Shown piece after piece: positions 56,930-64,000 of a stretch of 64,000 bases of DNA. The position numbers and the translations under genes were made by a program. The stretch lies in the NCBI GenBank assembly GCA_017470715.1, contig JAFUYE010000094.1:1-64000 (forward strand). Direction: 5' to 3'. Each line of letters starts with the position of its first letter. Position 1 is the stretch's first letter. The stretch comes from Selenomonadaceae bacterium (lineage in GTDB: Bacteria; Bacillota; Negativicutes; Selenomonadales; Selenomonadaceae). The notes under the pieces were generated by a model that was given only the letters and a program-made list of their open reading frames with translations, was not told where the DNA came from and did no database searches.

Positions 56930-57815
56930 TTGACAAATTCTCATGCCTAAATGCAGGGGATTCTGCTATCATCAACACTTGCTTAAAAATTTAAGTCTTA
57001 CGGTGTCTCCTGCAAGGGTCGTTGCCCCACCCCTGCTTGCAATATGTTTATTGCGGCGTTTCGGTCTCGGTCGTGTTCCGCGCCGCAGTTCGGACATATC
57101 CATTGGCGTATTTCAAATCCTTGACTTGCGGATTCTTTTCACCGCAACACCGGCATATCTGACTTGACGCGAAATATTTACCGACTCCGATAATCAGCGT
57201 GTTAAATTTTGACGCCTCGTACTTCAAAATATTTACGAAACTGCCGAAGCCCAAATCAGAAATCTTCCTGCCGTAAAGTCGTTGCATCTCCTTCAAGTTC
57301 AAATTCTCAATGCAAATCGTGTCGTACTCAAGGCAAAGTCTTCGGGCAAGTTTGATGTGGAAATCTTGTCGTTGATTCGCTGATTTTTTATACAGACGCG
57401 CCAATTTCAATCTCGATCGTTTCCGATTGTTTGAGCCGTTACGCTTCCGCGATAAATTTTTACAAGCTGACTTTATCGCAACTGAATTTTTAGCAAAAAA
57501 CAGCGGGCTTGTCACGTCTCTGCCGTTCGACGCCGTCAAAAATTTCTTTAATCCGAAGTCGAAACCGACGATTTCATCTGTTCGCGTCTCGACCTCAAAG
57601 TTTTTGGCATCCGTCACGAAGTAAACATAAATGTCGCCCAAACTGTCGCGCTTGACAGTCACCGTCTTGATCTTACCGCTTATTCGCCGCGACTGAAAAT
57701 ATTTGTAGCTGTTTGGCGTTGTGTTCCGACTTATAGAGCTTGAAACAAAATGTCTTCATTGCACTCACCTCGCAGTTATATCCCCATAGCTAAAGCCGGG
57801 AGTTTTACGGCGCAT
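56930..57815 (-). mobile_element. IS200/IS605-type element relic (tnpB only)
   Basis: The 886-bp relic has the left end following TTATCAA (minus strand) and the right end closing with TCAA, as in the mini copy at 18160-18406. The right-end segment with AAATTTAAGTCTTACGGTGT and ATGCAGGGGATTC could also be the 3' part of an omega RNA. No tnpA is present. The element sits between the MATE remnant and proA. Confidence 0.8.
56998..57759 (-). pseudogene. tnpB: TnpB (RuvC-type, IS605) degraded gene
   Basis: The ATG at 57759 starts KTFCFKLYKSEHNAKQLQ, a TnpB-like N-terminus, but the frame stops after about 28 codons; roughly 100 codons of the normal gene are lost before GKIKTVTVKRDSLGDIYVYF. The RuvC parts GFDFGLKKFLTASNG, CIENLNLKEM and the first zinc-ribbon Cys pair (CRCCGEKN) follow. 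A one-base shift then moves the second Cys pair (QWICPNCGAEHDRDRNAAINI) to another frame, ending at 56998. The normal length is 370-400 residues. It is inactive. Confidence 0.88.
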
Positions 57816-61348: not shown

Positions 61349-61414
61349 CGTGAAGTCTTTAAAAAAATTTCCCGCGTGATATAATGTCGCAAATGTTTGA
61401 AGGGAGTTTTTAAC

Positions 61415-62134
61415 TTGAAGCTTTGCAAAATTTTTTCGATTGCATTGCTGGCGGCGATTTTAATAGTCACGCCCGTTTCCGCGCAAAAATCTCAGTCGCC
61501 CGATGATTCGTCGGGGTTCGTCGTGCTGTCGGAAGTTGTGCCCGACATTATCCAAGAGATTCGCTATTTCTCGACGTATAATTTCGTCGGTGACAGGATT
61601 GATGGTTATCTGCAACCGTGCGCGCTGATGACCCGCGAAGCTGCCGAAGCGTTGAAGGCAGTTTCCGATGACGTGATGCAATACGGTTATCGGCTCAAAA
61701 TTTACGACGCCTACCGTCCGCAAATGGCGGTTGACAATTTCGTTCGTTGGGCTGAGGATATCGGCGATACCCGCATGAAAAATTATTTTTATCCGAAAGT
61801 CGACAAGACGCGCCTGTTCGACGAAGGATATATCGACGCAAAATCGGGGCACAGTCGCGGCTCCACGGTCGATTTGACGCTGTTCGACATGAAGACCGGC
61901 AAAGAAGTCGACATGGGCGGCACGTTCGATTGGTTCGGAATTGAATCACATCCCGATTACGTCGGCAAGCTCACCAAAGCGCAACTTCGCAACAGAAAAT
62001 TTTTGCGCGACGCGATGATTCGTCACGGTTTCAAGCCGCTTGATACCGAGTGGTGGCATTTCACGCTGAAAGACGAGCCGTATCCCGACACGTATTTCAC
62101 GTTCCCCGTGACCGATTTGAACGCGACAAAATAA
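61415..62134 (+). CDS. Exported D-alanyl-D-alanine dipeptidase (VanX/DdpX family, M15D)
   Basis: Members cleave D-Ala-D-Ala and thereby recycle or remodel cell-wall precursors; in glycopeptide-resistant bacteria VanX does this in the cytoplasm. The zinc ligands and base are visible in SGHSRGSTVDLTLFD (SxHxxGxxxD) and EWWHFTL (ExxH). The Arg of AYRPQMAVDNF is the usual transition-state residue. TTG at 61415 follows AGGGAG and gives a signal peptide (KIFSIALLAAILIVTPVSAQ), so this one acts outside the membrane. No van regulatory genes are present, and a resistance role is not implied. Confidence 0.9.
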   Translation: MKLCKIFSIALLAAILIVTPVSAQKSQSPDDSSGFVVLSEVVPDIIQEIRYFSTYNFVGDRIDGYLQPCALMTREAAEALKAVSDDVMQYGYRLKIYDAYRPQMAVDNFVRWAEDIGDTRMKNYFYPKVDKTRLFDEGYIDAKSGHSRGSTVDLTLFDMKTGKEVDMGGTFDWFGIESHPDYVGKLTKAQLRNRKFLRDAMIRHGFKPLDTEWWHFTLKDEPYPDTYFTFPVTDLNATK

Positions 62135-62160
62135 AAATTTCCAGTCGACAACAGAAATCA

Positions 62161-62197
62161 AAAATCCCCTGACACAAAGTCGGGGGATTTTTTTTTG
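62161..62197. terminator. Bidirectional terminator, dipeptidase / precursor genes
   Basis: AAAATCCCC pairs with GGGGGATTTT, followed by T-run. It lies between the dipeptidase gene and the leftward precursor genes. Confidence 0.88.
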
Positions 62198-62249: not shown

Positions 62250-62339
62250 TCAGAATCCGAAGGAATTGCAACCGCAAGAATGTCCAGAGCATCTTCCCAA
62301 AATTTTTTTGAACGAGAACGGCTTGACCAAGAATTTCAT
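62250..62339 (-). CDS. Cys-rich precursor peptide, copy 2 (putative RiPP)
   Basis: A 29-codon gene with its own GGAGGG site. The N-terminal part MKFLVKPFSFKK is identical to copy 1. The C-terminal part has ILGRCSGHSCGCNSFGF with three Cys and ends in the same GF-stop. The conserved N-terminus with a variable, Cys-rich C-terminus is the layout of leader and core in ribosomally made, modified peptides. The MKF-VKP start recalls the Clo7bot-type peptides linked with radical SAM enzymes; this is from memory. Confidence 0.75.
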   Translation of the reverse strand: MKFLVKPFSFKKILGRCSGHSCGCNSFGF

Positions 62340-62409
62340 AATGAATCCCTCCAAAATTTTTTATGGTAAATTGAATTTGTGGTAAGGAAATGCCGGTGGC
62401 TGTAAAGAA

Positions 62410-62499
62410 TCAGAATCCGAAGGAATCGCAACCGCAAGAATGTCCCTTGCATTTTCCAAAAACTTTTTTGAACGAGAACGGCTTGACCAAGAATTTCAT
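62410..62499 (-). CDS. Cys-rich precursor peptide, copy 1 (putative RiPP)
   Basis: A 29-codon gene behind GAGGAGGG, 23 bases after the beta-helix gene stop. It shares all of MKFLVKPFSFKK with copy 2 and has core VFGKCKGHSCGCDSFGF. GHSCGC and SFGF are the same in both. The repeat unit (about 103 bases including the ribosome site) is spaced 160 bases, so copy 1 and 2 come from a tandem duplication. Confidence 0.75.
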   Translation of the reverse strand: MKFLVKPFSFKKVFGKCKGHSCGCDSFGF

Positions 62500-62522
62500 A
62501 ATGAATCCCTCCTCAAAAATTT

Positions 62523-63182
62523 TTACGCACGAATCGTCTCGCCGACCGACGAATCGTCGGCAACTTTGCACTCGCCCGAAATGAACAATTTTTCAATCGC
62601 GCAATTTTTGCCGATAACGGCGTCACGGCACTTGATAACGTCAACCGCGCAGTTTTCCAGCTCGACCGTATCCGCGTCGATTTTTTCTATGCGGACACGC
62701 GAATGGCTAATGTCAAAATTATCATTGTCGAAAATTTTAATGTGGCGGCATGTAACTTTGTCGATTGAGCCGTCACTCGACGCGATAATAATTTCGTAAG
62801 CCGACAATGAATTTATTTGCGGTTTGCCCGACAAATTCATAACTCGTTCAATCGTTAAAGTCCCAACCTCAACTTTGCCACTGCCGGAAAAATTTTTCGC
62901 ATTGACAGTGTCGCCTGTGAACTTACCCGAAATGACAACCTCGTTGCAAGAAACATCGTCAACCGACAATTCGCCCGAAGTCTTTAAATAATCAGCCGCG
63001 ATTGAACTGCCATTGCATTTGCCAGAAACATTAATCTTGTTGCAGGAAATTTTCTTGAACGAAAGATTGCCCGAAACTTTCAACTCCTGCAAATTCTCGC
63101 TGTCAGGCAGTTCGCCAATGCCAATTATTTTATGAACTTTGCCGTTTGCGTCGGTGTATGTTCCGCTACCCCTAATTCTCAA
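62523..63182 (-). CDS. Repetitive beta-helix (bactofilin-like) protein of the RiPP-like cluster
   Basis: A 219-residue protein from TTG 63182 (GGAGG ten bases upstream, overlapping the radical SAM stop). It consists of short beta-strand repeats with the recurrent pattern SGxxxxxxxxxxxxLxxSG, for example ELKVSGNLSFKKISCNKINV and SGELSVDDVSCNEVVISGKF. Such polymer-forming beta-helices are typical of bactofilin-like folds. Several Cys lie at equal positions of the repeats. Its role is unknown; its place between the maturase and the precursors suggests that it works with them, perhaps as a scaffold. Confidence 0.7.
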   Translation of the reverse strand: MRIRGSGTYTDANGKVHKIIGIGELPDSENLQELKVSGNLSFKKISCNKINVSGKCNGSSIAADYLKTSGELSVDDVSCNEVVISGKFTGDTVNAKNFSGSGKVEVGTLTIERVMNLSGKPQINSLSAYEIIIASSDGSIDKVTCRHIKIFDNDNFDISHSRVRIEKIDADTVELENCAVDVIKCRDAVIGKNCAIEKLFISGECKVADDSSVGETIRA

Positions 63183-64000
63183 TCCATAGTCGCCTCCTTT
63201 AGTTGTTCATAATAATAATCGAGAACTTTTTCCAAGTTATATTTAACTTGCCTGCAAACAGGTTGCTCGTCGTCAGAAATTCGCATGAAATACGGACAAC
63301 CGCCCATGCAAATCGGCAAGCAATTACATTCGCGACATTTCGGGTGCTTAATCGGGTTCCACTGAATCCATGACAGATAATTTTTTTCAAGCGTAAGATT
63401 TTCGCCGTCATTGACGTTTCCGCTCGATTGTTTCAAGTTACCGACGTGATTCCAACAGCGATACAGCTCACCATCATTGTCAACGACAAAATCATTTGCA
63501 TAATCGGCGCAACAAAAATTCGTAAGCGGTACAGGGTAAGCTGCCATCTTGTTGACGGTGAAACTGCGGAGCAAAACTTTTTCGTACAGCGGAATCATCA
63601 CGTCGGCAAATTGCGCGTTGTTGTAGCAATCACTTTCAATCGACTTGCAAATATCCGTGAACGGCGACACCTGCCCGAAGTCAATTTTCAAATCTTCGCG
63701 TTTGTCGATTCGTTCGGCAAGCGTGTCAAGTAATTCGTCGACGCGGGAAATATTTTCTTTGTCAATGTTGATTCGGACAATCACCGACAAATTTTCGTTT
63801 AGCAAAAGATTAACGCGGTCAATCAGCTTGTCGAAGGTACTTTCACCCGTGACGTTGCGTCGGCGGCGGTCGTGAATTTCCTTAACGCCGTCAATCGTAA
63901 TCTGCGCGCCGCTGATTTTGTAACGCTTGAACTGCTCAACGTCCGAATCATCAATCAAACTCGCGTTCGTGATGATGAAAGCGTCGTAGTCGACGGAAGA
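63179..64000 (-). CDS. Radical SAM/SPASM maturase (partial, N-terminus outside the window)
   Basis: The frame runs off the right edge. The visible 273 residues include the C-terminal part of a radical SAM barrel (AFIITNASLI, ISGAQITIDGVKEIHDRRR with GxQITIDG and the later IVRINIDKEN) and a SPASM cluster-binding domain with CRECNCLPICMGGCPYF and outlying Cys at CCAD, YRCW and VCRQ. This pattern is common in peptide maturases such as those for thioether-bridged peptides. The CxxxCxxC motif must lie beyond the window. Two precursor genes downstream support this role. Confidence 0.88.
   Translation of the reverse strand, partial: SSVDYDAFIITNASLIDDSDVEQFKRYKISGAQITIDGVKEIHDRRRRNVTGESTFDKLIDRVNLLLNENLSVIVRINIDKENISRVDELLDTLAERIDKREDLKIDFGQVSPFTDICKSIESDCYNNAQFADVMIPLYEKVLLRSFTVNKMAAYPVPLTNFCCADYANDFVVDNDGELYRCWNHVGNLKQSSGNVNDGENLTLEKNYLSWIQWNPIKHPKCRECNCLPICMGGCPYFMRISDDEQPVCRQVKYNLEKVLDYYYEQLKEATMD

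Follow-up and report, generated by a model that had tools for sequence, protein, structure and literature searches.

The described systems closest to the locus reported here are the Clo7bot clusters, represented by curated models for the maturase (TIGR04334) and for the peptide (TIGR04333), together with the SCIFF/ranthipeptide maturases and, for one of its proteins, the bactofilins. The nearest parallel for its promoter is found in Neisseria, where the same architecture, a poly-G or poly-C tract between the -35 and -10 elements, switches porA and fetA (PMC5320596, PMC7864442). Among open-licence papers, to which the literature search was limited, we found none on Clo7bot, none on DUF4097 or bactofilin partners of radical SAM clusters (the match for DUF4097 being an unrelated proteomics paper) and none on phase-variable radical SAM bacteriocin clusters.

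The operon lies at the right end of the window, by which we mean the whole 64,000-nucleotide stretch of DNA that was analysed, and its host is a rumen bacterium. On the minus strand, transcription runs from a radical SAM/SPASM gene through a beta-solenoid gene to two short Cys-rich peptide genes:

63179..64000, minus strand: radical SAM/SPASM peptide maturase; of its 439 codons the last 273 lie in the window, and the gene continues to 64498
62523..63182, minus strand: predicted cytoplasmic bactofilin-like beta-solenoid protein, 219 aa (weak Pfam Bactofilin match, AF2 model, conserved behind the enzyme)
62410..62499, minus strand: precursor peptide gene 1, 29 aa, MKFLVKPFSFKKVFGKCKGHSCGCDSFGF; ATG with GAGGAGGGATTCATT upstream
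62250..62339, minus strand: precursor peptide gene 2, 29 aa, MKFLVKPFSFKKILGRCSGHSCGCNSFGF; ATG with TGGAGGGATTCATT upstream
62160..62192 (L003 2161-2193), no strand assigned: terminator-like hairpin with a 14-bp stem, operon end

The contig (G000:C64) extends 2991 bases past the window, to position 66991, so that the whole enzyme gene could be read. This layout agrees with the preliminary description, which had reported two 29-codon peptide genes on one strand with their own ribosome sites, as well as overlapping gene starts: both reading frames are present, each behind GGAGGGATTCATT, and the start codon of the solenoid gene, a TTG, overlaps the stop codon of the enzyme gene. The hairpin carries a T run on the plus strand and an A run on the opposite side, and is common to the operon and to a convergent gene downstream (61397-62134, plus strand), which by inspection encodes a VanX/DdpX-like D-Ala-D-Ala dipeptidase with a signal peptide. 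The upstream neighbours of the enzyme gene, also named by inspection, are a glycerate kinase-like gene and a TPR gene. No exporter or peptidase adjoining the cluster was found among the upstream and downstream neighbours inspected. Elsewhere in the window there is a TnpB/IS605 OrfB-like fragment (57048-57662, minus strand), apparently truncated, again by inspection.

With moderate confidence, we read this locus as a Clo7bot-like RiPP operon that is phase-variable and includes a solenoid which binds its cognate peptides and is probably a maturation scaffold; the modification, the switching and the role of the solenoid are all inferred.

The maturase and its precursor peptides

The full enzyme gene (63179-64498, minus strand) encodes 439 residues. 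The preliminary description had proposed a search to the right of position 64000 for a CxxxCxxC radical SAM motif, and one is present just beyond the window as CNFRCKYC (residues 99-106). The SPASM pattern GX4C ... CX2CX5CX3C ... C is complete (C329, C348, C388, C391, C397, C401 and C415) and the SPASM model TIGR04085 matches with 53.2 bits against a cut-off of 27. Both the radical SAM and the SPASM cysteines are invariant in an alignment of 15 homologs. The best family match is the Clo7bot maturase model TIGR04334 (400.2 bits over residues 2-435), followed by TIGR04463 (281 bits) and the Cys-every-fifth maturase CefB (277 bits), while the SCIFF maturase model reaches only about 80 bits. The closest solved structure is 5wgg (E 3.4e-29), which we take to be CteB. 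In a search for an N-terminal PqqD/RRE-like recognition domain, residues 1-90 gave no Pfam or PDB sequence match. An AF2 model of the enzyme from locus L089 was too poor to use (pLDDT 43.5). A scan of contigs for related loci yielded one relative, a rumen Selenomonadaceae MAG.

Each of the two peptide genes has a GGAGG-type ribosome site immediately 5' of its ATG. Together they form a 104-nt direct repeat of 93% identity, in which the first 12 residues are identical at the DNA level and the five differing codons are all non-synonymous and all lie beyond residue 12. When gene 2 was searched against its own genome, the sister copy was the only other match. Taken alone, these two copies prove little; that the genes are real rests on their recurrence behind the enzyme and on the divergence of their orthologs. 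Related peptides (26-49 aa, Cys-rich, with an MKFLVxP-like start) also follow this enzyme at the other loci of the genus for which downstream sequence exists, which supplies the co-occurrence of precursor and enzyme in related genomes that the preliminary description had asked for. Five orthologous peptide pairs between G055/G050 and G046/G005 gave dN/dS values of 0.09-0.22 (from the dN/dS comparisons, the G005/G060 enzyme pair was discarded). On this measure the orthologous peptides are under purifying selection, which supports genuine genes and rules out spurious short reading frames.

Short Cys-rich peptide genes in tandem beside a maturase meet the Clo7bot criterion for peptides. Even so, neither window peptide matches TIGR04333 (curated cut-off 31 bits), the peptides of the best relatives reach only E 0.077 with this model, and the enzyme falls below the curated equivalog cut-off of TIGR04334 (600 bits). 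The Clo7bot-type pairing proposed at the outset thus holds as to the nearest family, TIGR04334, but not as to membership, which the curated cut-offs deny to enzyme and peptides alike. Since the enzyme is under one cut-off and the peptides fall short of the other, we predict an enzyme that works like a Clo7bot maturase but belongs to a distinct subfamily by curated criteria, its activity being inferred from sequence. It would recognise the short constant MKFLVxP start of the 26-49-aa peptides and modify their variable Cys-rich ends. Cys thioether cross-linking is the likely chemistry, an inference from knowledge of the enzyme family that has not been shown for this protein.

The genus also holds a second Clo7bot-like enzyme type (G017, G033, G006, G044 and G058; loci L141, L142, L047, L048 and L049), with peptides such as MIIILPPVNSSDDSCSLDICLPIKIVF. 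The copy in G017 adjoins phage-like genes, including a recombination-type gene (L141).

A homopolymer tract in the operon promoter

The operon promoter lies to the right of the window at contig positions 64532-64562 (L003 4533-4563) and reads TTGACA-AACGGCATTGAGGGGGGGG-TATACT, that is, TTGACA-N11-G8-TATACT with a spacer of 19 nt. TTGACA followed by G8 has no other instance in the whole genome. A homopolymer of 8-13 nt separates the -35 and -10 elements in 14 of the 15 enzyme orthologs, G044 alone lacking it, and its base varies: G in ten (G8-13), C8 in one and T12-13 in three. By comparison, a homopolymer of at least 8 within 24 nt was seen at only one of 277 other TTGACA sites in same-genus sequence (Fisher p 8e-22, with genomes treated as independent). 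The promoters of G015 and G041 are identical over about 100 nt save for T13 in one and T12 in the other, whereas their enzyme genes are only 85% identical. The tract is absent from the more divergent clusters (G116, G006, G164, G500 and G249).

The arrangement is not confined to this operon. Sites of the form TTGACA-N-polyG-(-10) occur in 51 of 66 genomes of the genus, against 7 for a reversed control pattern. The genes behind 30 sampled homopolymer promoters (L149-L178) include ten for RTX-repeat proteins, one for a flagellin and one for a D12 DNA methylase. RTX-repeat, flagellin and DNA methylase genes are classical phase-variable categories, and these promoters apparently constitute a phasome in this genus of rumen Selenomonadaceae. 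In the genome of the window, two further contigs (G000 C30 and C31) begin in poly-C/poly-G runs of about 20, which suggests long homopolymer tracts as the break points of the assembly.

By analogy with porA and fetA, the operon promoter looks built for random on/off flipping, although the switching itself is inferred. Slipped-strand mispairing would alter the length of the homopolymer between -35 and -10, so that only some cells would express the operon; this mechanism is read from promoter anatomy. Tract lengths were taken from draft assemblies with one genome per species, so the length differences are differences between species. Without read-level or strain-level data, it is still conceivable that the tract serves as a spacer of fixed length or as a site for a regulator, or that assembly errors account for its varying length. 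We consider this improbable, though it deserves to be kept in mind. Between well-formed -35 and -10 elements the homopolymer keeps its position while its base changes among G, C and T, a pattern not easily accounted for unless slippage is selected, and promoters of this design stand before RTX-repeat, flagellin and methylase genes in the genus, with few matches to the reversed control.

The beta-solenoid protein and its possible roles

Resemblance of the third protein to bactofilins is weak throughout. Pfam Bactofilin (PF04519) scores 18.5 bits for the window protein and 24.0 bits for its best ortholog, both under the gathering threshold of 27.9, and a Bacillus 'polymer-forming cytoskeletal protein' is matched at E 4e-5. 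A two-sequence AF2 model predicts a beta-solenoid for residues 1-130 (pLDDT block means 55-93) and no confident structure beyond; the top match in a fold search with this model was the bactofilin 6ria, which was not significant (E 0.52). No signal peptide was evident by inspection. Whole repeat units are present or absent among orthologs. The preliminary description had noted regularly placed Cys, and there are indeed eight (47, 56, 79, 145, 178, 185, 194 and 205), but only 145, 178 and 185 are invariant among orthologs. Relatives were not found in viral contigs, and plasmids gave one weak bactofilin match.

The solenoid gene is closely tied to the enzyme. A close enzyme occurs in 18 of 66 same-genus genomes, 15 of which have sequence behind it, and in 14 of these 15 a solenoid follows. 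The single exception is G015, whose peptides look degenerate. None of the 48 enzyme-less genomes of the genus carries an intact solenoid (Fisher p 4e-13, genomes treated as independent). This p value, like that for the promoter, overstates the case because genomes within one genus are not independent. Two clusters appear decayed: in G045 (L110) enzyme and solenoid are both fragments, and in G057 (L109) a solenoid fragment and an intact peptide reading frame remain, with the rubredoxin gene of other clusters behind them.

The solenoid diverges far faster than the neighbouring enzyme and does so in step with the peptides. Across 12 genomes, distances correlated poorly between enzyme and solenoid (r 0.19) and well between solenoid and peptide (r 0.65). 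The latter correlation persisted when the enzyme was controlled for (partial Mantel r 0.63, permutation p 0.0003), whereas that between enzyme and peptide given the solenoid was low (partial r 0.25, p 0.11); dropping the peptide leader left the result unchanged. The gene trees of enzyme and solenoid disagree: the enzyme data reject the main clade of the solenoid (AU p 0.0015) and the solenoid data reject the enzyme grouping G005+G060+G043 (AU p 5e-8), but both p values are optimistic because the clades were named after the distances had been seen. At synonymous sites the solenoid is less diverged than the enzyme next to it (dS 0.22 vs 0.59 for G005/G046 and 0.51 vs 0.98 for G055/G050), which points to recombination. 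Between G005 and G060, DNA identity is 84% in the enzyme and 86% in the flank, but only 64% in the solenoid. In these comparisons, then, solenoid and peptides behave statistically like one exchangeable unit, a cassette, behind an enzyme that stays constant, although linkage of neighbouring genes could partly account for their co-diversification. Co-occurrence, co-loss and co-diversification thus lend good support to the claim of the preliminary description that this protein is an unusual third partner.

That solenoid and peptides travel together behind a constant enzyme favours a peptide-binding role, which is an inference. On the statistical evidence, the putatively cytoplasmic solenoid would be the cognate partner of the peptides rather than of the enzyme, diversifying and moving with them, and its most likely job, which is inferred, would be that of a scaffold or chaperone holding the peptides for, or after, modification. 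A stronger version, in which the solenoid, as a dedicated template or scaffold that co-evolves, selects the short peptides to be modified by a conserved radical SAM enzyme in a system stochastically switched and diversified by cassette swapping, is possible, and we advance it only tentatively.

Alternatively, the solenoid might protect the producing cell by binding the mature peptide, as an immunity protein does, the product of the operon being a phase-variable antibacterial. Bacteriocin and immunity pairs usually show co-diversification and cassette exchange, and the solenoid and peptides match this pattern; variable peptides and a switchable promoter would also fit competition or exposure. 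We nevertheless think immunity unlikely. One would expect immunity genes to persist in genomes without the enzyme, yet no intact orphan solenoid was found in the 48 such genomes, and decayed G057 has kept its peptide frame intact while its solenoid is reduced to a fragment. Nor does the locus have an exporter, or a signal peptide apparent by inspection. The lack of orphan solenoids is what makes a maturation scaffold or chaperone our first choice.

Less plausible still is that the enzyme modifies the solenoid itself, treating this Cys-bearing repeat protein in the way that long repeat precursors are modified. The enzyme's score with CefB and the eight Cys, three of them invariant, are compatible with this, but solenoid divergence does not track the enzyme, most of the Cys are unconserved, whole repeat units are gained or absent between orthologs, and the short peptides with their constant start are the more obvious substrates. 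An ordinary bactofilin, a cytoskeletal polymer merely co-transcribed, is very improbable despite bactofilins being the best, if sub-threshold, matches, since the protein occurs only with the enzyme and is lost with it, diverges far faster than its neighbour while tracking the peptides, and has no significant fold match to 6ria.

If the maturation-scaffold reading is true, a RiPP maturation system gains a solenoid scaffold as its specificity partner under random on/off control of the kind seen for surface antigens. We know of no RiPP class with such a partner. Random switching and cassette exchange would then imply that the product meets fluctuating selection, from competitors, phages or the host, and the ecological role of the operon in the rumen would become testable. 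Beyond this operon, the homopolymer promoters found across the genus provide a simple way to locate further exposed traits in a group that has received little study.

Comparison with known systems

The enzyme shares with CteB (5wgg) and the SCIFF/ranthipeptide maturases a radical SAM and SPASM architecture with two auxiliary cluster sites. It differs from SCIFF in its low score with that model, and the window peptides, besides being shorter, do not show the six-Cys pattern of SCIFF. The resemblance of the solenoid to bactofilins (PF04519; 6ria) rests on a beta-solenoid predicted for residues 1-130 only and on its best, though weak, sequence and fold matches; unlike them, it stays below gathering, is confined in the genus to the RiPP operon and varies in its number of repeat units. 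Unlike the promoters of Neisseria porA and fetA, which drive outer-membrane proteins, this one controls a peptide-modification operon, and its tract base differs between species.

A beta-repeat partner is also found in two other Clo7bot-like clusters, in the form of a DUF4097 toastrack protein: G116 (L044 7723-8478; PF13349 E 1.4e-8), from another genus, and G249 (L085, about 10267 on the strand of the enzyme; E 1.1e-20), from another part of the phylum. Neither has an obvious signal peptide. For G116, the only case compared, hhalign detected no homology of the DUF4097 protein to the solenoid (probability 0.5). These are the only two among roughly 20 other loci read that have a DUF4097 partner, and most others have no beta-repeat partner. 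Such partners may have been recruited more than once in Clo7bot-like clusters, a possible case of convergence.

The likeness to Clo7bot itself (TIGR04334/TIGR04333) lies in a nearly full-length enzyme match of 400 bits, in tandem short peptides beside the enzyme and in their MKxxVKP-like start; the differences lie in an enzyme below the 600-bit cut-off and in peptides with no TIGR04333 match. To this plan the window operon adds a beta-solenoid partner and a homopolymer promoter, and it is the co-diversifying solenoid and this promoter that are the new elements of the system.
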